Shown here piece by piece: positions 1,215-34,017 of a DNA stretch of 34,427 nucleotides. The notes under the pieces are model-generated. The model saw only the letters and a program-made list of their open reading frames with translations. It did not search any database and had not been told where the DNA came from. Position 1 is the stretch's first letter, and every line of letters starts with the position of its first letter. Source of the DNA: a virus; the IMG/VR virus record IMGVR_UViG_3300044949_000293, positions 1-34,427 of that record; one strand, given 5' to 3'. The position numbers and the translations under genes are program-made.

Positions 1215-3104
1215 TTGGAAAGAAATCTAACCCCCGAAGAGGCTCGTAAAGAACTCATCGACTTGGTACGCCAAGGGCGCACCATCGCCGATGCCCTAAA
1301 GGTTATCGGTAGAAGTCGTTCTTGGTATGACACCCAACGGCGCGAAGCTCAAGGCTTCGCTGCCTACGTAGACAATGCTCGGTTTAGAACAGCAGACCTC
1401 GCAGAAGATGCTCGGTCTGGTCTTTCTGACTTTGCCGAATTCTCCGAGAAGTATCTTGGTGCAAAAGTCTGGGACCACATGCTTAACGTGGTCGATATGC
1501 TAGAAGGTCGGGAACCTCGCTGGATTGAACCAGCAATGACCTACGAAAAAGGCTCTGGCGGTCTATCTCGTTTGCTGGTAAACGTACCACCAAACCACGC
1601 CAAGACCATGACCATCACGATTAACTACGTGACCTACCGTATCGTCAAGAATCCTAACATCTCGGTTATCGTAATTTCGAAAACCCAAGAGCAGGCTAAG
1701 AAGTTTCTTTACGCTATCAAGCAGCGTTTAACGCATCCGCGTTACGCTGACTTACAAGCTGCCTTCGGTCCAGCCGATGGCTACAAAGCAACCGCTGACC
1801 AATGGTCGGCTAACAAGATTTACCTTGGCGGAGATATCCGCGACAACGACGCTAAAGACCCTACGGTCGAAGCTATCGGTATGGGCGGTCAGGTCTACGG
1901 CGCACGTGCAGACCTAATCGTGCTAGACGACGTGGTGACGTTGTCGAACGCCAATGAATGGGCGAAGCAACAAGAATGGATTAGGCAGGAAGTTGCCTCA
2001 CGTCTCCCACCAGGAGGCGGTCAGCTTCTCGTAGTCGGTACTCGCGTATCAGCAGTCGACTTGTATAAAGAACTTCGCAACCCCCAGCATTACACGGATG
2101 GTGTACTTCCGTGGTCATATTTGTCCATGCCAGCAGTACTTGAGTACGCTGACAATCCAAAGGATTGGAAAACCCTTTGGGCTAAATCAGAGCAACCTCT
2201 TACAGACACTGACGTGCCTGACGAAAATGGTTACTTTGACCGATGGACAGGCGAACGCTTAACGGCGGTTCGCAACGAGGCAGGACCATCCAAATGGTCT
2301 CTGGTTTACCAGAACCTCGATATCGCGGAGAATGCAATCTTCGACCCGATGTGCGTCAGAGGCGCAGTCAACGGAATGAGAAAATCGGGTGCGCTTATTG
2401 CAGGCGCAGCGGGACATCCTGATAATGCACAGAACTTCTTTCGCATTATTGGTATTGACCCAGCGATGTCTGGCGACACCGCAGCTGTAGCTTACGCAGT
2501 TGACCGCAGAACACACAAGCGCTATGTCATGGACGTTCACGTCATGAGCAGCCCCACACCTGCAGCAATTCGCTCCTTGATAAGAGAGTGGACGGATGCG
2601 TATCAACCGCATACCGTTATAGTTGAGTCAAACGCTTTTCAGCTTTTCTTAACACAGGATGAGGAAATTAGAAACTTCCTTGCCACACGTGGTATTAATT
2701 ACCGACCACACTACACAGGTAATAACAAGCAAGACCCAGAGTTCGGCGTAGCCTCTCTGGCACCACTGTTCGGTACCGTCATTAAGCGAGACGGTAACAA
2801 CAACAACTTGAAGCATGCAGGCGATAACATCATTGAGTTGCCTGACTCTTCAAGAAATGAACATATTAAAAAGTTAATAGAACAACTTGTAACCTGGCAG
2901 CCAGGAGTACAGGGCAAGCGATTAAAGATGGACGCCGTGATGGCGTTATGGTTCTGTGAAATCGTAGCCCGTGATGTTCTACTTACTTCAGCCACTGTAC
3001 CAAACTTCCTTAAGAACGAATTCACACCACGTTCCGAAGTTGAATCAAGGTACATCGTCAACTTAGATGACTTAGCTGCAGCGCAGCGAATAGCGAGATT
3101 GTGA
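1215..3104 (+). CDS. terL: terminase large subunit with N-terminal HTH region
   Basis: This 629-residue protein is the packaging motor and headful or end-cutting nuclease. The ATPase region has a Walker A-like VPPNHAKT (124-131), Walker B LIVLDD (234-239) and a GTRVS coupling segment near 275-279. The nuclease region has GIDPAMSGDT with Asp 415, VIVES with Glu 471 and MDAVMALWF with Asp 573, the acidic triad expected of an RNase H-like terminase nuclease. The start is a TTG at 1215, supported by GGAG five bases upstream. Residues 6-60 look like a small-terminase-type HTH (GRTIADALKVIGRSRSWYDT). No separate small-subunit gene is seen in the window. Portal follows at once. Confidence 0.95.
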   Translation: MERNLTPEEARKELIDLVRQGRTIADALKVIGRSRSWYDTQRREAQGFAAYVDNARFRTADLAEDARSGLSDFAEFSEKYLGAKVWDHMLNVVDMLEGREPRWIEPAMTYEKGSGGLSRLLVNVPPNHAKTMTITINYVTYRIVKNPNISVIVISKTQEQAKKFLYAIKQRLTHPRYADLQAAFGPADGYKATADQWSANKIYLGGDIRDNDAKDPTVEAIGMGGQVYGARADLIVLDDVVTLSNANEWAKQQEWIRQEVASRLPPGGGQLLVVGTRVSAVDLYKELRNPQHYTDGVLPWSYLSMPAVLEYADNPKDWKTLWAKSEQPLTDTDVPDENGYFDRWTGERLTAVRNEAGPSKWSLVYQNLDIAENAIFDPMCVRGAVNGMRKSGALIAGAAGHPDNAQNFFRIIGIDPAMSGDTAAVAYAVDRRTHKRYVMDVHVMSSPTPAAIRSLIREWTDAYQPHTVIVESNAFQLFLTQDEEIRNFLATRGINYRPHYTGNNKQDPEFGVASLAPLFGTVIKRDGNNNNLKHAGDNIIELPDSSRNEHIKKLIEQLVTWQPGVQGKRLKMDAVMALWFCEIVARDVLLTSATVPNFLKNEFTPRSEVESRYIVNLDDLAAAQRIARL

Positions 3105-3108
3105 TTTC

Positions 3109-4869
3109 ATGAAAGAATTCGTACACGCTTTTGAGCAATTGAAAGCTAGAAACGCCGAGCGCGATAAGCGCATGCGCGAGGTAGCTTTAGTTCGTGCTGG
3201 TAATGCAGACCAGGTATTTCGTGGTTTGTTCCCAGAGGGAACATGGTCACGTCCTATCATTGCTAACCTTATCGACGTTGTAGCTCGTGATGTATCTGAG
3301 CAAGCTGGTGTTCTACCTACCATTACTGCTGCTGGAGATTCATCTCTCGATGACTCCCAGCGTACCAAAGCTGATAAGCGTACAAAGATTTGTAATTACT
3401 ATGTAGCTTCATCACGACTTGGTACGGAACTACTGCGTGGCGCAGACCAGTTGGGTACATACGGATTCGTTGTATTCCGTGTGGAACCTAACTTTAAAGA
3501 ACGTCGTCCGCATATCCATGTTGAAAACTCCATGGGTGCGTACTACGACGTTGACCGATTTGGCGAAGTCCAAGTCTATGCTCGCTCTTACCATCGTAAG
3601 GCGGGAGATTTAGCAGCTCAGTTCCCTGAGTATGCTGACCAAATTCTACAAACAGGTGCGTTCTCTCGTGGAGATACAAACCAGCTTCTTGAAGTTGTAC
3701 GATGGACTGATAAGAAGCAAGCAATCATGTTTATCCCAGAGCGAGGGGGCGTAGTTCTTGCACAGACACCAAACAAACTCGGTCGTGTCCCAGTTGCGAT
3801 TGCTCAACGTCCTTCTCTCGACGGAGAAGTCCGAGGCTCGTTCGACGATGTACTACCTGTTTACGCAGCCAAAGCTCGTCTTGCTCTCCTTACTATGGAA
3901 GCTGTCCAAAAATCTGTTGAAGCTCCTCTTGCTTTGCCTACTGATGTTACTCAGCTTTCCGTTGGTCCTGATTCAGTCATTCGTTCTAACTCCCCTGAGA
4001 AAATTCGTCGTATTAATTTGGACGTACCTCAATTCGCTTTTGCTGAGAATAATGTTCTAGCCGATGAAATGAAGTTGGGAACACGATTCCCACAAGCACG
4101 TGCAGGACAAGCAGAAGGTTCTATCGTTACTGGTCAAGGTGTCAAGGCACTTATGGCTGGATTCGATTCACAGATTAAAGTTATTCAATCAGTACTTGGT
4201 GAGGCAATTGGTCAAGCTATTTCAATCGCTTTGGCTACCGATGAAACATACTTCAAGGAAGTTACACGTGAAGTATCTGCTACGGCAAACGGAGTTCCTT
4301 ACAAGTTAAAGTACAAGCCATCAGCTGACATCAACGGTAACTATGGAGTTACAGTTGAATACGGACTAATGGCAGGTCTAGACCCTAACCGAGCACTCGT
4401 ATGGGGTCTACAAGCACGAGGCGACAAGCTAATCTCACGAGGAATGCTACGTCGCAATCTACCGATTTCGCTCAATGCTGGAGAAGAAGAGCGAGCAATT
4501 GATATTGAAGAGATGCGTGATTCGCTAAAGCAATCAGTTGCATCTATGGCTGCTGCAATTCCACAAATGGTAATGCAAGGTCAAGACCCAATGAAGATTG
4601 TTGAAAAGATGGCTGCAGTTATTGACGAACGTAAGAAGGGTACTCCTCTAGAGGATGCCGTTGCTAAAGCGTTCAAGCCAGAACCAGCACCAAAACAACC
4701 TCAGATGCCAGGAATGCCTCCACAGGGAGCAGCTCCTGAACAGGGTATGGGTGGCGAAATGCCTAACTTCCCACAAGAACGACCAGCAATGCAAGAACTT
4801 CTTGCAGGTCTAACTGGTGGAGGAAATCCAAACCTAGCAGCAAGAGTAACTCGTCAAATACCAGCATAA
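3109..4869 (+). CDS. portal protein
   Basis: This 586-residue protein follows the terminase by four bases, the standard position for the portal, the dodecameric ring through which DNA passes. The N-terminal part (residues 30-60, ending IIANLIDVVARDVSEQAG) and the central beta-rich domain are typical of portal proteins of short-tailed phages. A long helical section lies around 290-480. The C-terminal 60 residues are Pro, Met, Gln and Gly rich (PQMPGMPPQGAAPEQGMGGE) and probably disordered. The ribosome site is weak, so translation may be coupled to the terminase. The family call rests on composition and order more than on a single motif. Confidence 0.88.
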   Translation: MKEFVHAFEQLKARNAERDKRMREVALVRAGNADQVFRGLFPEGTWSRPIIANLIDVVARDVSEQAGVLPTITAAGDSSLDDSQRTKADKRTKICNYYVASSRLGTELLRGADQLGTYGFVVFRVEPNFKERRPHIHVENSMGAYYDVDRFGEVQVYARSYHRKAGDLAAQFPEYADQILQTGAFSRGDTNQLLEVVRWTDKKQAIMFIPERGGVVLAQTPNKLGRVPVAIAQRPSLDGEVRGSFDDVLPVYAAKARLALLTMEAVQKSVEAPLALPTDVTQLSVGPDSVIRSNSPEKIRRINLDVPQFAFAENNVLADEMKLGTRFPQARAGQAEGSIVTGQGVKALMAGFDSQIKVIQSVLGEAIGQAISIALATDETYFKEVTREVSATANGVPYKLKYKPSADINGNYGVTVEYGLMAGLDPNRALVWGLQARGDKLISRGMLRRNLPISLNAGEEERAIDIEEMRDSLKQSVASMAAAIPQMVMQGQDPMKIVEKMAAVIDERKKGTPLEDAVAKAFKPEPAPKQPQMPGMPPQGAAPEQGMGGEMPNFPQERPAMQELLAGLTGGGNPNLAARVTRQIPA

Positions 4870-4882
4870 CAAGGAGAAATAA

Positions 4883-5032
4883 ATGTTCGGAAAGCAAGGA
4901 AAAGCAGCAAAAGCTCCAGTACACCCAGGACACGCAGGCAAGAAGTCAGCAGGTAAGGGTGTCGGTCTAGGACAGAATGCTAAGCCAGCAGCGCTAAAGA
5001 CCATCAAGGGCAACAACAACAAGCTTAAGTAA
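4883..5032 (+). CDS. 49-residue basic Lys/Gly-rich protein
   Basis: A small ORF of 49 codons fills the gap after the portal. It has a strong AAGGAG ribosome site before its ATG and ends MKxx-free with a basic KLK tail. The protein begins MFGKQGKAAKAP and contains about a quarter lysine, with no hydrophobic core. It is likely a nucleic-acid-contacting or disordered virion-associated peptide. The stop overlaps the ribosome site of the next gene, which is also Lys-rich. No family recognised. Confidence 0.7.
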   Translation: MFGKQGKAAKAPVHPGHAGKKSAGKGVGLGQNAKPAALKTIKGNNNKLK

Positions 5033-5041
5033 AGGATAACC

Positions 5042-6661
5042 ATGGCAGCCAAGAAGGCAAAGACCACACGAAAGTATCGGCAGGCAAAACAGGCTGCCAA
5101 ACCTGCTGCCAAGGAAGCGTTTCCTGGTAAGAAGCAAGCAGGACGTAGAGAACCATTAGGCAAAATCAGCTTAGAAGATAAGCAAATTGCTGATGAAGTA
5201 AGAAAAACCGCTAAGTCTGAACTTGGCAAGAATGCATACCTCAGCAAGTCTGAATACAATATGCAGCAAGCTGCATCTCGTGCAAGATTCCGAGAGGCAA
5301 TGCGTGAAGAGTTCGGCGAATACGGTGGAAAGAAAGCTTCACCAGCTGAATCAGAAGTATCTAGAGCAGCTAAAGCAACTTCAGCAGGCAAGGGTTCATC
5401 TCTTGTAGAAGATGGCAAGGTTGTATCTAAGGCTCGTGCTGAAGAAATTATGTCAGGTAAGAAGAAGTCACCTGCTAAAAAGAAAGCAGCGGTTAAGAAA
5501 CCTTCTGTTGCAAAGCCAGGCGTCGATGTTAAGAACGTTGCAAAGGTAGCAGGTAAAACTGTTGCTGCTGCTAAGGCAGCAAAAACTGCAGGTAAAGCTG
5601 CAAAGTCTGCTGGAAGAGCAGCACGTTCCGCTGCAAACAAAGCAGCATGGAAGAACATGACTCCAGAAGAGCGCAAGAACTGGAAGTCAACTCGACCAGG
5701 TGCTAAGCCTTCAACATATGTAGCAGAACGTAACGCAGGTAAGACACCAGCAGATGCTGCTAAAAAGGCTAACCCAAGATTGTTCAAGAACCCTACGGCA
5801 GAAGCACCAGTAAAAATGCCAAAGGAATCAACAAAGACAACACCAACAAACGTTAAGCCTTCACCGCAAGGTAAGACACCAGTGCGTCCTACAGATGCAT
5901 CACTTCGTGCGAAGGAAGATGCATATCTTGATGAAACCAAGAAGCGTATGGCTGCAAAGAACAAAGCTCTTGCTAACTCAGCTAAAGGTAAAACACAAAC
6001 ACCTCAAGCAGAAAAGGCTAGAGCTACCGCAAAGCCAGAACCAAAGAAGGCTGTAGCACCTAAGAAGGGTTCACGTACAGTACGTGGAGCTAAGTTTGTT
6101 GCTAAGAAGTTCCCACTAGCGATGGTTGCTGGAGAAGTTGTTTCAGCAGCTAAGGGTTCTACATTTAAAGACCTTAATGAGATTAACCGTCTTAAGGCAA
6201 AACTTGGTGATAAGCCAATGTCAGCCAAAGAAGGTGCAGCAACACAGGCAAGTAACCTTGCTAATCTTGCAACCATGGGTCTTGTTGGAAAGACTCGTCG
6301 TCAACGTATGGACGAACTTAATGCAAAGATTAAAAAGAAGGAAGCAGCAACTGCTAAAGCCAACAAGGGTCTTCGTTATGGACCAAAGGGCGAAAGCTTA
6401 GTTCCAGGAACCGATGCATACAAGAAGGGTTCCAAGACACGTCCATCTGCTAGTTCAGCAAATAAGCCAACAACTGGTGCAGGTGGTTCATCTACTAAGT
6501 ACGTAGTTAAGAAGGGCGATACCTTGTCAGGTATTGCTAAGAACGCAGGGCTTTCACTTTCAGAAGTTCGTGCATTAAATCCAAAACTAATGAACGACCC
6601 TAAGTACAAAAAGGGTTCAGCGATTTGGTCTGGAACAAAGGTTAACGTTAAGAAGAAATAG
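5042..6661 (+). CDS. Lys/Ala-rich protein with C-terminal LysM domain
   Basis: This 539-residue protein is dominated by lysine and alanine for most of its length, with histone-H1-like runs such as KSPAKKKAAVKKPSVAKPG and VAAAKAAKTAGKAAKSAG. The last 55 residues (485-539) form a LysM domain: YVVKKGDTLSGIAKNAGLS, then EVRALNP and a closing GTKVNV. LysM binds N-acetylglucosamine-containing polymers such as peptidoglycan. The start ATG has AGGA five bases upstream. Placement after the portal and before the capsid block suggests a virion protein, possibly DNA-condensing inside the head and cell-wall-binding on ejection. That double role is inference. Confidence 0.85.
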   Translation: MAAKKAKTTRKYRQAKQAAKPAAKEAFPGKKQAGRREPLGKISLEDKQIADEVRKTAKSELGKNAYLSKSEYNMQQAASRARFREAMREEFGEYGGKKASPAESEVSRAAKATSAGKGSSLVEDGKVVSKARAEEIMSGKKKSPAKKKAAVKKPSVAKPGVDVKNVAKVAGKTVAAAKAAKTAGKAAKSAGRAARSAANKAAWKNMTPEERKNWKSTRPGAKPSTYVAERNAGKTPADAAKKANPRLFKNPTAEAPVKMPKESTKTTPTNVKPSPQGKTPVRPTDASLRAKEDAYLDETKKRMAAKNKALANSAKGKTQTPQAEKARATAKPEPKKAVAPKKGSRTVRGAKFVAKKFPLAMVAGEVVSAAKGSTFKDLNEINRLKAKLGDKPMSAKEGAATQASNLANLATMGLVGKTRRQRMDELNAKIKKKEAATAKANKGLRYGPKGESLVPGTDAYKKGSKTRPSASSANKPTTGAGGSSTKYVVKKGDTLSGIAKNAGLSLSEVRALNPKLMNDPKYKKGSAIWSGTKVNVKKK

Positions 6662-6669
6662 GTCAAACA

Positions 6670-7074
6670 ATGTCAATGATGCAACCTTCGGGTCCTGGAA
6701 AGTTCGCTAAGCGAACCGATAGACAGGGTGCTATGAAGTTACCTAACGCTGCTTATGGTGAGCAAAAGCAATTCCAAGCAGAACAAGCAGGCGCACCAAT
6801 GGCAAAGTCAGCACCACGGCGCAATCCAATGGAAAACATTGTTCCGTTAACAGCGCCAACACGTAGACCAAGCGAACCTGTTACTGCAGGAGTTGACTCT
6901 GGTCCAGGACCAGGTAGTTCAATTCTTGGAATGAAAAAACCAGCAGATGTTACGTTGGAAGATTTATCCAAAATGTCTCAGTACATGCCATTGATGGTTC
7001 GCTTTGCGGACTCACCACAATCTAGTGGAACAATGAAAGCGTTTGTTAAATATCTAAGGAGTCAAACCGAATGA
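6670..7074 (+). CDS. putative structural protein of unknown function
   Basis: Encodes 134 residues. The N-terminal 80 residues are Pro, Gly, Lys and Gln rich and look disordered (PSGPGKFAKRTDRQG, SGPGPGSS). The C-terminal 45 residues look folded and helical (VTLEDLSKMSQYMPLMVRFA). It lies between the LysM protein and the next small gene, with which it shares an ATGA overlap. No family is recognised; a virion or assembly role is inferred from location. Confidence 0.75.
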   Translation: MSMMQPSGPGKFAKRTDRQGAMKLPNAAYGEQKQFQAEQAGAPMAKSAPRRNPMENIVPLTAPTRRPSEPVTAGVDSGPGPGSSILGMKKPADVTLEDLSKMSQYMPLMVRFADSPQSSGTMKAFVKYLRSQTE

Positions 7075-7250
7075 GAGCACTCAAGAAGTTCGAAGAGAAC
7101 CTTGAGTACCTTGGCTTTGACATGGCTCCAATTGCTTGGGATATAGCACGTATGGAGTTTCCAAACGATGATGACCGACTTGCTTTATTAGAAGAATTGA
7201 CTGTTCAGAAGGAGGTCACACCAGGTGTCAATGACGGAATGGTGGAATGA
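7071..7250 (+). CDS. 59-residue acidic protein of unknown function
   Basis: A 59-codon ORF starts with ATGA overlap on the previous stop and runs 26 bases into the next gene. The protein begins MRALKKFEENLEYLGF and has a conserved-looking IAWDIARMEFPNDDDRLALLEEL helix. A very strong AAGGAGGT ribosome site for the following gene lies inside it (7209-7216). Double overlap and lack of any gap argue that it is translated. Function unknown. Confidence 0.7.
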   Translation: MRALKKFEENLEYLGFDMAPIAWDIARMEFPNDDDRLALLEELTVQKEVTPGVNDGMVE

Positions 7251-10200
7251 CCCACAAGTCAACAAGCAACCTTCTAAGGTTAAAACATCTAAGGTAGATG
7301 AGTTCAAGAAGCAAACAGATAAAACTAAGGTAGGTCAGGCAGAAGCTGCCATCATACCTAAAGTTGCTGGTGCAATTGAAGCAGGTAGCAAGAAGCCAAT
7401 CCTTGGCGCGGTTATTAACCCAGCAATGCGTGTGCTTGAAACATTTGGCAAGCGTGTTGTACAGCCACTTACTCAAGGTGCATCTACTGCATTACTTACG
7501 CCACAAGCTATGGCTGCTGGCAAAGGTAACCCTATTGAATCATTTCGTTTTGCTAAGAAGCAATCTGAAAAGATTTCTATGGGTCAAGCGTTAGCAGGTG
7601 CTGTAGGTAAAGTTACATCACCAGTACTTGGTGACGTAACAAACGCTACCTTTCTTAACGAAGACTTCGATATCTTTAACGATAAGCAACGCGAACGAGC
7701 ATTCAGAGATGAATGGGTTGGCATCATTGCATCAGGGTCAAGCGATTTAGTATTAGCTGCGCTAGGAACTAAAGGCGCTGGAGCTACTGTTCGTGCTACA
7801 GGTCGTAAAGTTGTAGGACCAAAGCGTATTGCAACAACAGATGACATGAATAAGTTTCGTGATGAAATCGAAACTATTGTTACAGAATCTACATTGCCAG
7901 ATGTTCAGCGTACCAAAACTGGTCTTACTGTACTTGTTGATGATGCCGTTAGAGAAAAGGACATCACCAAGTTAGCTGCTAACCCACTAGTAAGTGAAAC
8001 AGCAAACCCTTACCGTACCGCAACAATCGTTTCACGATTGGATAACCACCGCGATGTAGCAGATTACTTGCTAGCAGAACGCGGTGACATTGATGCGTTT
8101 AATCGTTTCTTTGCAAGCAAGCCACTAGATGCTGACCACTTAGATGATTACGGTATCGACAAGACAACACCAATCTATGATTGGTCTGAGTTGGGTCAAG
8201 AGTTTCTTACACCAGCAATGACATCAAGAATGCAGCGGATTGTTGATGCAAAGAAAGCAAGTGACCCTAAATTTGCACGAGCTCTAGAAGAGTTCGGTGC
8301 TAATCTGCCACGTGGCGTAAACGTTGAAAGCTATCGTCCAGGACGTTTTGCTGCTCTTGAATCACTTAGCCTTGCTAAAAAGAAGATTCAATTGCAGTCA
8401 CAATACGGTGACCTTAAAATGTTTGGTGACGACGGTGGCGAAGGTTGGAAGACGCAGGTCTACCAAACAAACACATACGACCGCGTTATCCGCACAATTG
8501 CATGGACTGGCTCAGGTCGCCCACAGGGCATGATTAATATTTCTAACCCACGTGCATTTGAAGCATCATCTGATTTACTATCAGACCTTAACCGCCTACA
8601 GTTCCTTAGTGGAGCCGAAGGCGCAGTGTTTAAGCGTAAGATGGTTTCAAAGTTTCTTAACGCTCAGGATGATACAGAACGTGCATTAGCACTTGGTCAA
8701 ATTGAAGAAGCTGTCATGATTCGCCTAGCAAAGTTCTATGGCGTAACAGACCTTCAGGATATCCGCACACCTACTGACGCTGTCGACCAGATTAAGCAGT
8801 GGCGCACCAAGGCTAACGAATCACGTTCAACCATCAAGCAGTTTGCTGTTAAGAATGGTTTTATTCCAGACAACGATGGTTCTATTAACGTACAGAATTT
8901 TCTTTCAGTATCAAACGAAGCTCAAACAATTCCAATGCTTGACTTCCGCCGACTAGAAGCAGAAGTAATTATCAATGCTCGTCGTGCTGCTGGTAAGGGA
9001 ACAAAGGTAACTGAAGGTCAATACCGTGGCGCTGTTGTGTCCAAGGTAGCTATGAACACTGGTCAGTTCCTTGACTTAGCTAACATGGTTTTCTCAAACC
9101 TTAACTTGCTTCGCCTTGCATACATTCCTAAGAACTCAATGATTGACCCAATGGCTCGTGCTTCTATGGCACTTGAGTCTATGGAGTTGTTCCGTAATGC
9201 AGCACCAGCAATGGATAATGTTGCATATAACTCAAGCCTTCGCGCTGAATCAATCAAGCGTTTCTTGCCTGGTTCACCACAATCAAAAGCACGTAAACGT
9301 GCTGAAGCTGCAAAGTTTGAAGTTGAACAGTACCGAGCAGAGATGGAACCAAAAGTTGCTGATTGGGAAAAAGCACAGGACGCATTTGATATTGCTGACA
9401 AGAATTACGCTAAGTTAGTTGCTGCTCGTGATAAGGCATTGGCTCGTGCCAATAAGTCTACAGGTGCATCGGCTGCTAAGGCACAGGCTGCATTGTATGC
9501 AGCAGAGGATGCGCTTTATGACGCACGTATTGCGCTTAGCCAAGCAGATGACCAATTGTCACGTACGGCAGATATTGTCAACGGATACGCAAAACTTATT
9601 GACAATACACGCAAAGACTGGATTGATTACGAATCACGTAAGCAAGAGTTGCGTACTGGTAAGAAGCGCATCGGTCAAGAGCAAGATGTAATCGTAAGCT
9701 CAAGTGGCAAGGCATACACTATTGATGGTCTTGCAGACCCTAACATTCGTGGCGTCGGTCCTTACATGGCTGAAGTTGATTCAGCTCAAAACTTTTTAAC
9801 AACTGCTATGCAGTCAGAAATTTCTCGTCGCCTTCGTGCAGACGGAACTCGCTTTGTAAAGATTAACCGCAAAGACCGAGCAGAATATATGAATGCTTTG
9901 GCACATATTGCAAACCGTCAGATTCGAAATGAAATCGACATGCCTCTTGGCATGATGATGCGTAATGAATCTACTGGCGAGATTCTTAAGTGGTTATACA
10001 GCCCAGCAGGTAAAGAGTACCGACTACGTATGCAGTCACGTTTCGGCGGTAAAGAATTAAAACGCGATGACTTTGCTAACTGGATTGATACAACCAGAGA
10101 CAAACTTTTCCAGATGTATCCAGATGATGGACTACGTTCAACAATTCTTACACGTGAAGTTTCTGTTGACGAGGTTGACTCAATCCTTTACGGCAAGCCA

Positions 10201-12171
10201 GATTTGCCAGAAACAATTGATGGACCAAGCCTTCAACTTAACGATTTGAATAACCTAGAACGTGGCTTAGCCAAGGTTCAGGGAGCAACTGATGCAGCAT
10301 GGAGAATCTTATCTGCAGCAGAAAACAGACTGGTGCGTAATCCACTGTTCTTGACGTATACACGCCAAGAGATGAAGACGATGGTAGATGCTGCAGAACG
10401 CTCTGGCATTAATGTATCTGACGCGGTGGTTAACCATGAGATTCGCCAAGCTGCATATCGTAAGGCGTTATCACGTGTTGAAGAAACACTGTACTCATCA
10501 CGTCGCCTCAGCAACGGTATGTACGTGGCACGTTATGCCATGTCATTCCCACTAGCATTCTTTAACTCACAGGCTGTAGCGCTTCGCCTATTGGCTCGCA
10601 ACCCAATGAATGCGTACTGGTACAACAGTATCCAGCAAGCGTTCGATAACTTTGAAGCATACGAAGACCAAGATGGAAACACTTACAAGAACATTAAGGA
10701 TGTTCCTAGAGGAACGCAAGTGTCCGTTAAGTATCCAATTCCTTTTGGTGACAAGCTACCAGGTTGGGCTCAGAACGCACTAAAGCCTTACACAGATTCA
10801 CGTGGCGGTGGAATCCGCTGGAATCCAAAGCAACTAGAGTTTATGGTTGCTGACCCATCAGTATCTTGGTTCGGTGGTATTACAATTTCTGAAATCGTTA
10901 AGAACGGTATCGGAATTGGTCCATGGAAGATTTATGGCGAACAGGTTGCTCAAGGATTACGTGAAGTACTTGGCGATGATGTCTATGAATCCAGCGTTCT
11001 ATACGGTGGATACCCACAAGAAGGTGGTGGTTTCGTAGAAACTACAGCCAACACAATCCTTCCAGGGTATATGAAATCAGGTTTAGCTGCACTAGGCATC
11101 TTTAGAGATGACAGATTCTTGGACGAAACATTTGTCCAGTTTAAAACTGCATACGCTCAATGGGATAGAAACGGTCGCATAGGCGAGCCACCTACCATGA
11201 CAACAGCAGCACGAGCTGCTGGAGTAATGTCTTTTATCCGTTCGATTGTTCAGTTCTCAATGCCAATCGCTACATCATTTGACCCTGTAACACGTTCAGC
11301 TACTGCATGGTATGCAGAGTTGGTCGATGCTACAGGCGGAGATTACAAGATGGCAGACAAGATATTCGCAGAACAATGGGGTGTCGATGCAATCGCACTG
11401 ATTGGTTCTAACCAAAAGAATATCTCAGGTCTTGCAACAACAATGGATGACCTAGCTGTTCTTCGCAAGAACCCAGAGTTGCTTGCAAAGCTTGGACGTT
11501 CCAACACAAAGTACGCAGCAATGCTTTCATCTGGTTACGGTGATTTGTCAAGCAGTTCTGAATACTCAACCGAAGTTGCTGCAATCTTTAAGAAGCTTGG
11601 TTACCCTGGATATGACACTCCTATTACCCAGAAAAAAACCAAGGAAGAAGTAGCTAAAAGCGTTGAGGCTCGACGCGGTTGGTTTGAGTACCAGAAGGCT
11701 CAGGAGTGGCGTGATGCCAAGATGGCTGAGTACGGTATTCGGTCTACAAGCGAATCAATGTACGAACGAAGCGGTATCAAACGTGAGTTTGACAAGATGG
11801 TTCAGGTCGTTATCGATGACTTCCCATCATGGGTTACCGAACGTAAGAACATCAACGATGAGTATTGGGATGCAACAATCCCATCTATTCAGAAGATTGT
11901 AGATGATGAAAACTGGAGAGCATATTCCTTCAGTAAGGGAAGTCCTAAGTGGGAAGAAATAGCGTACTGGCTTGAAGAAGCTAAAGCTTTTAACAAAGCT
12001 TATGAGCAGCAAAACAATACAGACAAGCGCAAACTTCTACTAAAGCAAAACTTTGCTCAGTTCCACTATGACTTTTTGCAGACAGCATCTGAAGAATTTG
12101 CTGCTTTTGCGTACAGATGGTTAAACAATATGCCTCAACTAGACACAGAATTTACGGTGACAAATGGCTAA
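7225..12171 (+). CDS. giant structural protein, probable internal virion (ejection) protein
   Basis: At 1648 residues this is by far the largest protein in the window. A perfect AAGGAGGT at 7209-7216 lies eight bases before a GTG at 7225, so GTG is preferred over the ATG at 7231. The N-terminus is basic (residues 14-40). Residues about 690-800 are a charged Ala-rich coiled coil (RAEMEPKVADWEKAQDAFD and following). A hydrophobic stretch near 1100-1123 (YAMSFPLAFFNSQAVAL) could contact membrane. No enzyme motif was found. With no tail tube or sheath genes nearby, a tape measure is less likely than an internal core or DNA-ejection protein like the large ones of T7-type phages. This is inference. 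Confidence 0.85.
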   Translation: MSMTEWWNDPQVNKQPSKVKTSKVDEFKKQTDKTKVGQAEAAIIPKVAGAIEAGSKKPILGAVINPAMRVLETFGKRVVQPLTQGASTALLTPQAMAAGKGNPIESFRFAKKQSEKISMGQALAGAVGKVTSPVLGDVTNATFLNEDFDIFNDKQRERAFRDEWVGIIASGSSDLVLAALGTKGAGATVRATGRKVVGPKRIATTDDMNKFRDEIETIVTESTLPDVQRTKTGLTVLVDDAVREKDITKLAANPLVSETANPYRTATIVSRLDNHRDVADYLLAERGDIDAFNRFFASKPLDADHLDDYGIDKTTPIYDWSELGQEFLTPAMTSRMQRIVDAKKASDPKFARALEEFGANLPRGVNVESYRPGRFAALESLSLAKKKIQLQSQYGDLKMFGDDGGEGWKTQVYQTNTYDRVIRTIAWTGSGRPQGMINISNPRAFEASSDLLSDLNRLQFLSGAEGAVFKRKMVSKFLNAQDDTERALALGQIEEAVMIRLAKFYGVTDLQDIRTPTDAVDQIKQWRTKANESRSTIKQFAVKNGFIPDNDGSINVQNFLSVSNEAQTIPMLDFRRLEAEVIINARRAAGKGTKVTEGQYRGAVVSKVAMNTGQFLDLANMVFSNLNLLRLAYIPKNSMIDPMARASMALESMELFRNAAPAMDNVAYNSSLRAESIKRFLPGSPQSKARKRAEAAKFEVEQYRAEMEPKVADWEKAQDAFDIADKNYAKLVAARDKALARANKSTGASAAKAQAALYAAEDALYDARIALSQADDQLSRTADIVNGYAKLIDNTRKDWIDYESRKQELRTGKKRIGQEQDVIVSSSGKAYTIDGLADPNIRGVGPYMAEVDSAQNFLTTAMQSEISRRLRADGTRFVKINRKDRAEYMNALAHIANRQIRNEIDMPLGMMMRNESTGEILKWLYSPAGKEYRLRMQSRFGGKELKRDDFANWIDTTRDKLFQMYPDDGLRSTILTREVSVDEVDSILYGKPDLPETIDGPSLQLNDLNNLERGLAKVQGATDAAWRILSAAENRLVRNPLFLTYTRQEMKTMVDAAERSGINVSDAVVNHEIRQAAYRKALSRVEETLYSSRRLSNGMYVARYAMSFPLAFFNSQAVALRLLARNPMNAYWYNSIQQAFDNFEAYEDQDGNTYKNIKDVPRGTQVSVKYPIPFGDKLPGWAQNALKPYTDSRGGGIRWNPKQLEFMVADPSVSWFGGITISEIVKNGIGIGPWKIYGEQVAQGLREVLGDDVYESSVLYGGYPQEGGGFVETTANTILPGYMKSGLAALGIFRDDRFLDETFVQFKTAYAQWDRNGRIGEPPTMTTAARAAGVMSFIRSIVQFSMPIATSFDPVTRSATAWYAELVDATGGDYKMADKIFAEQWGVDAIALIGSNQKNISGLATTMDDLAVLRKNPELLAKLGRSNTKYAAMLSSGYGDLSSSSEYSTEVAAIFKKLGYPGYDTPITQKKTKEEVAKSVEARRGWFEYQKAQEWRDAKMAEYGIRSTSESMYERSGIKREFDKMVQVVIDDFPSWVTERKNINDEYWDATIPSIQKIVDDENWRAYSFSKGSPKWEEIAYWLEEAKAFNKAYEQQNNTDKRKLLLKQNFAQFHYDFLQTASEEFAAFAYRWLNNMPQLDTEFTVTNG

Positions 12172-29630: not shown

Positions 29631-30092
29631 ATGACTGAATCTATGTTCTCGTTTACAGGAAAGCTAAACGGAAATGATTTGTTTACCGTCCGAGGTAACA
29701 GCATTTCTGAATTCAAAGCAAACCTAACCGCAGCAGTCGAGGCAATCACTGATGCACAAGGTCTGCAAGCTATGTTGCTTAACCGCACAAATGGAGGAGC
29801 GTATGCTCCTAACATGGAACAAGCTATCGCTGGTCTACAGGCAGCGGGTCTTAACCCACAGCCTGTGACAACAACACCTCAAGCAATCGAGGTAGTTAAA
29901 GATAAGTATGGTAACGAGTGGACATATGGACATCCAGATGCACCAGACCTACCAGACGGACGTGGCAAGTACGCCAAGAAGAAGGGCGTATCAAAAGCAG
30001 GCAAGGCATACGTTGGTTGGTTCGACCCAGCTAAGGGACCAAAGCCTTTCTCACCAGGTGCTGTAGAAGCAGAAACAATCTGGACTAAGTAA
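29631..30092 (+). CDS. putative ssDNA-binding or recombination accessory protein
   Basis: Encodes 153 residues with a GGAG ribosome site. The N-terminus (FSFTGKLNGNDLFTVRGNSI) is beta-rich and the middle helical. The C-terminal part contains KYGNEWTYGHPDAPDLPDG and a basic loop (KYAKKKGVSKAGKAYVGWF). No Walker, nuclease or Cys motif. Lying between a Cas4-like exonuclease and a RecA-fold ATPase, it could be an SSB-like protein. That is inference from order; the fold is not obvious. It shares a TAATG junction with the ATPase gene. Confidence 0.65.
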   Translation: MTESMFSFTGKLNGNDLFTVRGNSISEFKANLTAAVEAITDAQGLQAMLLNRTNGGAYAPNMEQAIAGLQAAGLNPQPVTTTPQAIEVVKDKYGNEWTYGHPDAPDLPDGRGKYAKKKGVSKAGKAYVGWFDPAKGPKPFSPGAVEAETIWTK

Positions 30093-30925
30093 TGCGTAGC
30101 CTATTGCAAGTAGTGGGTGTCGAGTCACCAGCTGGTCATCAACTACCAGAAATCCTACCTCAACTCACCGCCAGTCAGGTGGTCTTCCGTCAAGCGCAGT
30201 TGCATTTGATTGCAGGTCAACCAGGCGGAGGTAAGACACTACTTGCATTATGGTACGCAGTTGCATCAAAGGTTCCATCTCTGTACATATCAGCAGACTC
30301 TGACTCACGTACGATTGCAACTCGTGCAGGTGCAATCATCATGAATAAAGATGTCGCTGATGTAGAAAGATTAATGGATACTGAAGCAAGTGTTCTCCTT
30401 GAGGACGCACTAGCAGAAGGTGCCAGCCATGTACGATTCGCCTTCGACCCAGCACCTTCTCTTCAAGATATTGAAGAGGAGATAGAAGCGTGGATTGAAT
30501 TACATGGCTCGGCTCCTGCTGCTGTATATGTAGACAACTTAATGAACGTAGCATCCGCTAGTGATAACGAATGGACTGCACTACGTGATGCCATGTCAGC
30601 GTTTCACTACATGGCACGTGAATATGAATCGGCATTCATCGTCCTACACCACGTATCCGAGAATGAAAAGATGTCTAAGCCGAACTACCCAGCACCACGT
30701 AAAGCGTTGATGGGTAAGGTGGCAGCGCTACCAGAGTTGGTCCTTTCGGTGGCTCTGGATAGCTCTTCCAATAGTTATCGTGTTGCTGTAGTTAAGAACC
30801 GACATGGCAAGGCAGACCCGACAGCAGAGAGTTATGTATCTCTAGCAGCGGAAGCAAGCAAGATGGTTCTCTATAATTCGCCAGCAGAATTGTTCCGCGC
30901 TAGGACAATGAGCCAATGGCAGTAG
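30092..30925 (+). CDS. RecA-fold ATPase (DnaB/Sak4-like)
   Basis: Encodes 277 residues. Walker A is AGQPGGGKT (41-49), followed by a helix LLALWYAVASK, and the second strand ends in LYISADSDSR, as in RecA/DnaB/KaiC-type ATPases. AAVYVDNL (143-150) is the Walker B strand and FIVLHHVSE (182-190) resembles the sensor strand of such folds. A possible Asp finger or arginine contact lies in YRVAVVKNRHGK. In phages such short proteins act as replicative-type helicases or as Sak4-like annealing ATPases. The neighbouring exonuclease and possible SSB favour a recombination role, but primase genes are also downstream. Confidence 0.85.
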   Translation: MRSLLQVVGVESPAGHQLPEILPQLTASQVVFRQAQLHLIAGQPGGGKTLLALWYAVASKVPSLYISADSDSRTIATRAGAIIMNKDVADVERLMDTEASVLLEDALAEGASHVRFAFDPAPSLQDIEEEIEAWIELHGSAPAAVYVDNLMNVASASDNEWTALRDAMSAFHYMAREYESAFIVLHHVSENEKMSKPNYPAPRKALMGKVAALPELVLSVALDSSSNSYRVAVVKNRHGKADPTAESYVSLAAEASKMVLYNSPAELFRARTMSQWQ

Positions 30926-31471: not shown

Positions 31472-31741
31472 GTGGAATTTCCAGACTTGTCACGAGCACT
31501 ATGTAGAGAAGTCGGTACGGAATTTTTTTACCCAGAAGAGGGTAACGAAACTGACACTTCAATATATAGTTTTGCTAGAAAGATATGTTCTGGTTGTGAA
31601 GTAAGACAAGCTTGTCTTGATTGGGGAGTACGCCACGAAGGTCATGGTGTATGGGGTGGTATGACACCACGTGAAAGAATGGCAATACGCAAGAAGCTAA
31701 ACATAACATTGGAATCAATTATCCCAGGGGAGTACTCATGA
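31472..31741 (+). CDS. WhiB-family iron-sulfur transcription factor
   Basis: Encodes 89 residues from a GTG with AAGGAG five bases upstream. The four cluster cysteines are present: Cys 11, then Cys 39, 42 and 48 in CSGCEVRQAC. The family's GVWGG turn is at 59-63, followed by a basic helix (MTPRERMAIRKKLNI) that contacts DNA or the sigma factor. WhiB proteins occur only in Actinobacteria and their phages, where they bind the primary sigma factor and redirect transcription. It is therefore the best evidence for the host phylum and a candidate regulator of host or phage promoters. Confidence 0.95.
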   Translation: MEFPDLSRALCREVGTEFFYPEEGNETDTSIYSFARKICSGCEVRQACLDWGVRHEGHGVWGGMTPRERMAIRKKLNITLESIIPGEYS

Positions 31742-32513: not shown

Positions 32514-32846
32514 ATGAATCAGCCTGAGTTCCTTGAAGCAGTCTTTAATCATTACGGATTGACCCTGCCACTTGGCGGAGAGAAATCAATCCTGTGTCCT
32601 GTACATGATGACTCTCGTAAGTCTGCTTCGGTGAACTCAGACAAGGGCGTCTGGGTATGTTATGCATGCAACGGAAGTGGTTCTGGTATACAGATAATCA
32701 TGGCTCGTGAAAAGCTAACATACCCAGAAGCTCGTAAATGGGCAGAGAAAAACATTGGCAAGGAATCACAGCAGTCTGCTCCCACTCGTGGACGTAAGAA
32801 GAACAGTGGGCGGTGGACACCACCAAGATTGAGAGCATCGCTGTGA
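32514..32846 (+). CDS. primase zinc-binding (CHC2) protein
   Basis: Encodes 110 residues. CPVHDDSRKSASVN and WVCYACNGSGSG give the CHC2 zinc ligands Cys 28, His 31, Cys 49 and Cys 52, the DNA-sequence-reading finger at the N-terminus of bacterial-type primases. A helix follows (TYPEARKWAEKNI), then a basic, Pro/Arg-rich tail (RGRKKNSGRWTPPRLRA). The catalytic TOPRIM part lies in a separate gene at 33370-34017. The stop overlaps the GTG of the intervening protease-like gene. Primer synthesis would need both primase proteins together. Confidence 0.88.
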   Translation: MNQPEFLEAVFNHYGLTLPLGGEKSILCPVHDDSRKSASVNSDKGVWVCYACNGSGSGIQIIMAREKLTYPEARKWAEKNIGKESQQSAPTRGRKKNSGRWTPPRLRASL

Positions 32847-33373
32847 CAACTATCATTGGTATACAGCAAGACAACGGCTGCATTCTTGCAGCCGACTCAC
32901 GTACCACAGCAGGTAACAGACCTTACTCTCACCCAATCGTCACGAAGATAACCAAACGTGGCAAGTGGCTGGTCGCAGGTGCTGGTGATGTGCAACCATG
33001 TGATGTAATCCAACATGTGTGGAAACCACCAGTAATCCCAGCCAACATCAAAGATGAATATCATTATATGATTACAACAATTGCGCCAAGCATTAGAGAA
33101 TGCATTAAGGAGTCTGGCTATGTGCCAGACAAGGATGATGCTGATGCTGGCTTTGAATTTTTATTAGCAGTTAATGGAACCATCTATCAGATAGATGACT
33201 CTTACTCAGTGTACTTACGTGACGATGGGCTGTATGGCGTAGGGTCTGGCTCAAGCTTTGCGCTTGGTGCATTGGCTGGTGGTGCAACATGGAAGCAGGC
33301 AATGCAGATTGCTGCTCGTAATGATGTGTATACTGCGCCTCCGTTTATTACACACAGACAGGAGAAGAAGTGA
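32843..33373 (+). CDS. proteasome beta/HslV-like threonine protease
   Basis: The start is taken as the GTG at 32843 in a GTGA overlap with the CHC2 stop, giving 176 residues; an upstream ATG at 32813 would add 10 residues. With this start the second residue is Thr, so removal of the Met exposes Thr 1 (TTIIGIQQDNGCILAADSRT), exactly as in HslV and proteasome beta subunits. Asp 17 and a Lys at 34 take the places of D17 and K33. LVAGAGD, GVGSGSSFALGALAGG and ARNDVYT supply the following family positions, including a Ser near 129 and Asp 160. The protein probably forms a ring-shaped peptidase, perhaps with a host ATPase. No unfoldase gene is nearby. Confidence 0.85.
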   Translation: MTTIIGIQQDNGCILAADSRTTAGNRPYSHPIVTKITKRGKWLVAGAGDVQPCDVIQHVWKPPVIPANIKDEYHYMITTIAPSIRECIKESGYVPDKDDADAGFEFLLAVNGTIYQIDDSYSVYLRDDGLYGVGSGSSFALGALAGGATWKQAMQIAARNDVYTAPPFITHRQEKK

Positions 33374-34017
33374 GAACCAATCCCAAGCTCATCGAACTCT
33401 GGACTAAAGCAGCGCATACATATCATGGTGCATTAGCTGGTTCACCAGCGGAGTCATACCTTGAACGACGTGGCATCCTTGATGGCGCCCAACAATTTTT
33501 GTTGGGGTATGTAGCAGAACCTGCTGCTGGTCATGAAGATAGAATCAAGCACCACCTATCCATTCCATACATCACCGAGGCTGGTGTTGTTGGGTTTAAG
33601 TTCCGTCGCATAGATGATGGTGACCCTAAGTACATGATACCTACTGGTCAGAAGCATCACCTATATAACGTAGGCGCAATACTTCACGCAGTAAGGGAGG
33701 TGTTAATAGTTGAAGGAGAGATTGACGCTATATCTGCAACTCTTGCTGGTCATCCTGCTGTCGCTGTCGCTGGCGTTAACGCTTGGAAGCCTTATTTCTC
33801 ACGTTGTTTCGATGGTATAGGCAGAGTAATTGTAGCCACAGACAACGATGTTAAAGAGGATGGGTCTAACCCAGGACAAGACTTGGCACGTAGATTAGTT
33901 GATGCAATACCACAGGCTATGCGCGTGTCGCTACCGCCTGACAGTGATATCAATAGTATAATTGTAGACCAAGGAGCTCAAGCATTAACCGCATTGATTA
34001 ATGCGTTAGACGATTAG
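33370..34017 (+). CDS. primase TOPRIM protein
   Basis: Encodes 215 residues from a GTG in a GTGA overlap with the protease-like gene; AGGAG lies five bases upstream. The N-terminal part (AAHTYHGALAGSPAESYLER) and IPYITEAGVVGFKFRRID with PKYMIP are the RNA-polymerase-basic region of phage primases. The TOPRIM core has VEGEIDA (114-120, Glu 115 or 117), VIVATDND (153-160, Asp 158 and 160). It ends in a helical segment. It lacks the zinc finger, which is the separate gene at 32514. A helicase is not encoded within the same protein. Confidence 0.9.
   Translation: MRTNPKLIELWTKAAHTYHGALAGSPAESYLERRGILDGAQQFLLGYVAEPAAGHEDRIKHHLSIPYITEAGVVGFKFRRIDDGDPKYMIPTGQKHHLYNVGAILHAVREVLIVEGEIDAISATLAGHPAVAVAGVNAWKPYFSRCFDGIGRVIVATDNDVKEDGSNPGQDLARRLVDAIPQAMRVSLPPDSDINSIIVDQGAQALTALINALDD

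Follow-up and report, generated by a model that had tools for sequence, protein, structure and literature searches.

A proteasome-like threonine hydrolase is a near-core gene of freshwater actinophages whose likely hosts mostly lack proteasome homologues

Introduction

What use is a proteasome-like protease to a phage whose likely hosts, with few exceptions, have no proteasome? The question is raised by a short open reading frame in a viral stretch of 34,427 nucleotides (IMG/VR record IMGVR_UViG_3300044949_000293; the whole stretch is called the window below). An earlier note, made from the sequence alone, had read this frame as an HslV- or proteasome-beta-like Ntn threonine hydrolase nested in the primase region. 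It had regarded phage copies as unusual, and had suggested that the protein could join a host Pup-proteasome, block one, or degrade proteins during takeover.

Proteasome-like proteins have been classified by Fuchs, Alva and Lupas (2021), whose group I consists of HslV, BPH, AAH, CPH, PPH and their relatives, with PPH and AAH occurring in phages (PMC8665760). The same study did not find an actinobacteria-specific phage with AAH, gave the viral proteasome-like proteins no function, and describes BPH as a ring peptidase with no known unfoldase (PMC8665760).

Results

A threonine hydrolase gene between two primase cistrons

The genes of the window on which the analysis draws are these:

1215 to 3104, plus strand: large terminase subunit (PHROG_38, 5.2e-67; 46% identity to phages E7 and F5)
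3109 to 4869, plus strand: portal protein (PHROG_104; 43% identity to the E7 portal)
30092 to 30925, plus strand: DnaB-like replicative helicase, in the same replication module as the primase (PHROG_243, 2.3e-75)
31472 to 31741, plus strand: WhiB-family regulator (Pfam PF02467, 3.2e-16; PHROG_472)
32514 to 32846, plus strand: CHC2 zinc-ribbon part of a split DnaG-type primase, upstream cistron (Pfam PF01807, 1.7e-11); its stop overlaps the start of the next gene (GTGA)
32843 to 33373, plus strand: proteasome-like N-terminal-threonine hydrolase (NTN) of 176 aa (Pfam PF00227, PHROG_1040, AlphaFold2 and Foldseek, invariant T1, D17, K34 and G47)
33370 to 34017, plus strand: Toprim part of the split primase, downstream cistron (Pfam PF13362, 1.3e-8); its GTG start overlaps the NTN stop (GTGA)

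The NTN frame opens with GTG, reads (M)TTIIGIQQDNGCILAADSRTTAG..., and encodes a protein of about 19 kDa with the N-terminus (M)TTIIGIQ. The Pfam Proteasome profile PF00227 matches it at 25.7 bits (cut-off 22.4), a match recovered by a six-frame search, and PHROG_1040, annotated as "peptidase HslV family", matches with E=1.8e-30. The gene is thus nested in the primase region, as the earlier note had it, and overlaps each primase cistron by four nucleotides. Such overlaps recur among the 87 loci of the window type, in 68 on the upstream side and in 75 on the downstream side. The WhiB-family regulator is a usual marker of actinophages.

In all 66 IMG/VR loci examined, the start codon lies immediately 5' of Thr1, hence NTN has no propeptide. 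A longer in-frame start (GTG at 32813), which would add a short propeptide, was rejected: many of these loci have in-frame stops just upstream of the NTN start, downstream of this alternative GTG, which makes 32843 the likely start. The resulting Met-Thr is a methionine-aminopeptidase context.

A near-core gene of a freshwater actinophage family

The phage family was delimited by its large terminase and was therefore not selected for NTN. Among the 17 long contigs chosen in this way, 16 encode NTN; the sole contig in which it was not found has 39,501 bp. The family includes the Planktophila phages E7 and F5, which were cultured on 'Ca. Planktophila' LanE-43 (PMC10202952). Both E7 (OX376640, with LanE43-AprE7 in its description line) and F5 (OX376641, AprF5) carry NTN, with 40% identity to the window protein over its full length. 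The window and E7 have most of the structural module in common (identities of 46% for the terminase, 43% for the portal and 40% for the coat protein). The GenBank records OX376640.1 and OX376641.1 hold no gene annotation and no host, and are labelled 'Caudovirales sp. ct2KA10'. There is a single NTN copy per genome in 27 long records, with one exception of 82.7 kb (IMGVR_UViG_3300027754_000069, 82,688 bp), where two copies lie 42 kb apart; this record seems to join two related phage genomes. NTN is thus a near-core, single-copy gene of the actinophage family that includes E7 and F5. This status and the lack of a proteasome in nearly all genomes of the likely host order (see below) are new, barring an earlier mention in the freshwater actinophage paper of Ghai et al.

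The position of the gene differs between phages. In the window type it separates the zinc-ribbon cistron from the Toprim cistron; in the E7 type it is found right behind the portal gene, and the primase cistrons are immediate neighbours. In 169 distinct NTN proteins, 72 are primase-located, 63 (E7 and F5 included) are portal-located, and 34 lie elsewhere or have a position that is not resolved. Location tracks the tree of the proteins, changing about 11 times. That the gene is kept despite its shifting place suggests that its product acts in trans. Six Streptomyces Beephvirinae with a related terminase and the same kind of layout of terminase, portal and long protein were tested, and NTN was absent from all six.

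Some features of these genomes are worth recording in their own right. The DnaG-type primase is divided into a zinc-ribbon and a Toprim cistron in either phage type, whether or not the protease lies between them (32514-32846 and 33370-34017 in the window, 6483-7347 in the E7-type record). The site that NTN occupies in the E7 type holds in the window a Lys/Ala-rich protein of 539 aa with a C-terminal LysM (5042-6661), between the portal and phrog_8200. A 1648-aa protein (7225-12171, phrog_10618) has counterparts of matching size and position in E7 as well as in the Streptomyces Beephvirinae, and is possibly an internal virion protein.

Relatives in other phages

Phage copies of this family turned out not to be unusual, given PHROG_1040, the PPH and AAH proteins of phages (PMC8665760) and the number of matches in sequence collections. 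Two profile scans of IMG/VR gave at least 584 and at least 576 confirmed relatives (more than 500 in either), and an AAH-type query against GenBank phages found 209 records with a relative, of which 154 come from Salmonella or Escherichia phages. The viral proteasome-like protease is real and well conserved, and phage copies of the enzyme family were already known.

The AAH-type relatives of unrelated phages lie in replication or nucleotide-metabolism modules. In the one examined among the Salmonella and Escherichia phages, the T5-like Salmonella phage HMD-P2, the gene (5001-5579) comes after nrdAB, DHFR and thymidylate synthase and is followed by RNase H; in Microbacterium phage Pumpernickel the AAH-type gene overlaps thyX. 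A relative lies near DNA ligase and thymidylate kinase in Tunturi_5, and near PhoH and ribonucleotide reductase in two marine phages.

Fold, catalytic residues and selection

An AlphaFold2 model computed from a 30-sequence alignment (pLDDT 94.1, pTM 0.90) is an alpha-beta-beta-alpha four-layer sandwich with helices H1 (50-58), H2 (72-90), H3 (137-145) and H4 (150-160). Foldseek against the PDB places BPH first (5ovs, E 4.4e-10, TM 0.77), followed by HslV, Anbu and 20S beta, and the best 50 matches are all proteasome-like. Against viral models, phage proteins take the top two places (TM 0.85-0.86), and one of these is named HslV. When PDB sequences are searched by profile, BPH again ranks first (4.7e-10) and HslV second. 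The earlier note would have given up its reading on a predicted fold unlike that of the Ntn hydrolases, or on loss of the threonine or Asp17 in homologues. The predicted fold is the Ntn sandwich, and both residues are unchanged across 170 phage copies.

The residues that the note had pointed to are correct in the numbering of the mature protein: Thr1, Asp17, Lys34, G133-S-G-S-S137 and N159-D-V-Y-T163. Lys34 corresponds to Lys33 of the family through a one-residue insertion. In the 170 distinct phage copies, T1, T2, I3, D17, K34, G47, P61, P62, G133, G135 and G141 never vary and a W59-x-P61-P62 motif after H1 is nearly invariant; position 134 is S or T, position 163 T or S, and position 160, the equivalent of Asp166, varies among D, N, T and S. 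The identity as an HslV/proteasome-beta-like Ntn threonine hydrolase is thus supported by the profile, the fold and the invariance of the catalytic residues. Relative to the window gene, the median dN/dS is 0.063 for NTN, which is thus under strong purifying selection, and 0.062 for the helicase, with higher values for the primase parts.

Position in the proteasome-like family

We searched 395 actinomycete genomes with the phage profile and found a match in 35; the 25 sequences that were read are 'TCIVG...SFRMGQ' proteins. Their length, motif and distribution suggest that this actinobacterial set is AAH, and we call it AAH-like. In a maximum likelihood tree, the freshwater phage NTN clade (86/94 with DSL-LC01) adjoins the AAH-like set, outside it, and the two together are split from BPH, HslV and beta subunits at 98/97; Tunturi_5 has a long branch and an unsure placement. 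Profile scores of the window protein agree with the tree, with 90.5 bits for the AAH-like set, 42.4 for BPH, 20.6 for 20S beta and 15.8 for HslV. No close cellular homologue was found in a pattern-based scan of 84,980 species genomes, in which the best full-length match has 29% identity.

Proteasomes and unfoldases in the likely hosts

The likely host order consists of small-genome actinomycetes (1.1-2.2 Mb; GC of 47-49% in five sampled stretches and 52% in G460), which we infer to be Nanopelagicales. Judging from its relatives, the window phage likely infects this order too. A PF00227 protein is absent from 79 of the 81 host-order genomes, and the same 79 lack the proteasomal ATPase (Mpa/ARC-type, OB domain PF16450). 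The two exceptions, G393 and G460 (1.8-1.9 Mb), keep both 20S subunits and the ATPase. Pup occurs in one of the 40 host-order members of the class sample (G393) versus 320 of 395 genomes class-wide. In the literature on acI/Nanopelagicales we found no statement about the proteasome. The host-order genomes usually encode two AAA_2 proteins, which are of ClpC and ClpX size and were assigned by size only.

The phages do not seem to bring an unfoldase of their own. A Pfam scan of 39 ORFs recognised no AAA+ unfoldase in the window, and its sole recognised AAA-type P-loop protein is the DnaB-like helicase (30092-30925); the earlier remark that none lies near the gene thus applies to the whole window. 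None was recognised in E7 either, where the AAA match is again the DnaB-like helicase, in a scan of its ORFs other than three at 23.2-25.3 kb and some small ones.

Discussion

A probable stand-alone protease supplied by the phage

We consider it probable that NTN is a stand-alone, self-compartmentalising threonine peptidase, nearest to AAH, with which the phage supplies proteasome-type activity to a host lacking its own. We infer Thr1 catalysis, ring assembly, independence from an unfoldase and the timing of expression as follows. In the window type, translation of NTN would be coupled to that of the split primase, in which case the protein would be made together with replication proteins. The host methionine aminopeptidase would remove Met and expose Thr1, which with Asp17 and Lys34 would form the catalytic centre, the amide of Gly47 providing the oxyanion hole. 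The subunits would most likely self-assemble into a double ring like that of HslV or BPH, as suggested by the retention of H1-H4 and by a nearest structure, BPH, that has no known unfoldase. Such a ring could cleave proteins that are small, unfolded or tagged while infection proceeds, with no need of a dedicated unfoldase, and would thereby provide proteasome-type activity to a host that lost its own. The degradation of proteins during takeover, which the earlier note had proposed, is possible. Against this reading stand the variation at the Asp166 equivalent and the two of 81 host-order genomes with a 20S proteasome, and the place of the E7-type gene in the structural module is hard to square with an exclusively early role. 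The bolder claim, that an autonomous, unfoldase-free ring protease of abundant freshwater actinophages runs protein breakdown in hosts without 20S, HslV and Anbu, is one that we put forward tentatively.

Alternative roles

The idea that NTN inhibits or enters host 20S rings would be the simplest explanation for a phage of a class in which Pup is found in 320 of 395 sampled genomes. It is removed by the lack of every proteasome homologue in nearly all likely hosts. With PF00227 and PF16450 absent from 79 of 81 host-order genomes, and Pup from 39 of 40, the plugging into or blocking of a Pup-proteasome that the earlier note had envisaged is not supported. Streptomyces normally has a proteasome, and the related Streptomyces phages nevertheless lack NTN, which leaves interference with 20S rings very improbable. 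The presence of NTN in freshwater phages and its absence from these Streptomyces phages fit the supply of a missing activity, in a comparison of two host groups only. An active ring peptidase could instead capture the host ClpX or ClpC and redirect ATP-dependent proteolysis to phage ends: AAA_2 proteins of the size of both are present in almost every host-order genome, 79 of 81 of these genomes have no proteasome, HslV or Mpa-type ATPase, and a phage unfoldase was not recognised. HslU, the natural partner of HslV, also resembles ClpX. ClpX and ClpC dock on ClpP by IGF-type loops that fit ClpP pockets, however, and NTN would need an equivalent, so far hypothetical pocket; we regard such capture as unlikely.

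Many phages keep a prohead protease after the portal gene, and NTN follows the portal in 63 of the 169 distinct copies, E7 and F5 among them. The window yielded no other recognisable maturation protease. NTN might process scaffold, coat or internal proteins in place of a prohead protease. The 72 copies located by primase genes, the relatives in nucleotide-metabolism modules of T5-like and other phages, and the Streptomyces phages that have the same terminase/portal layout without NTN all speak against this. We rejected a prohead protease as the main role, since its position is not the same in all subfamilies and its relatives are found in nucleotide modules, and consider assembly processing improbable. 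It is likewise doubtful that NTN resembles connectase in being an Ntn hydrolase or ligase of monomeric or low-order form that acts on a single specific substrate: H1-H4 are the helices used for ring contacts, and the model keeps all four and lacks the two-helix insertion that connectase has between S3 and S4. In favour of such an enzyme are the family's own W59-x-P61-P62 motif and the existence of proteasome-like proteins that are not ring proteases (PMC8665760).

Implications

Nearly every member of a very common family of freshwater actinophages carries a gene of the NTN clade. With E7, F5 and their host LanE-43 all cultured (PMC10202952), experiments can address what a viral proteasome does where no host proteasome competes with it. 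T5-like phages with the AAH-type gene in the nrdAB-dhfr-thyA cluster are genetically tractable test phages already at hand.

Comparison with known proteasome-like systems

NTN shares with 20S beta subunits the Thr1, Asp17, Lys33-type catalytic triad and the GSG motif; it differs in having no propeptide and no alpha subunit. Assignment to 20S beta was rejected, with scores below the equivalog cut-offs, the phage having only one PF00227 gene and 79 of 81 host-order genomes having none. NCBIfam models gave sub-threshold matches only, the best being an archaeal beta subunit. With HslV, NTN has in common the fold, a similarly short C-terminus and a 'VYT' near the end, yet it is not HslV by NCBIfam (17.5 against a cut-off of 137, and 16.9 against 157.75 bits), and no HslU was recognised in the phages (window, E7) or, judged by size, in the host. 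PPH has about 140 residues and no helix H2, in contrast with the 176 residues and the H2 at 72-90 of NTN. Connectase-type proteins lack H1 and H2 and have a two-helix insertion between S3 and S4, whereas the NTN model has both helices and no insertion.

By fold and by profile, the best solved structure for NTN is BPH (5ovs, 5ovt, 5ovu). Identity is about 20%, however, and the NTN sequence gives no clear sign of the long acidic pore loop that BPH has. A place within BPH was rejected on the 98/97 branch that sets BPH, HslV and beta apart from the phage/AAH clade. PHROG_1040 is matched by the window, E7, DSL-LC01 and actinobacterial AAH-like proteins alike (E<=1e-22); it is a broad cluster of mixed subfamilies, with a function given by annotation only.

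The best reading of the sequences is that NTN forms a clade of its own, nearest to the AAH group. The two differ at about 30% identity, with Thr2 and W-x-P-P in NTN and Cys2 and V-P-P in the AAH-like proteins. NTN shows traits of AAH, namely no propeptide, H1-H4 and no S12/H5 extension. In common with the AAH-like proteins, it has Thr1 right after the start, an x-PP motif after H1, no H5, and a link to phages and actinobacteria.
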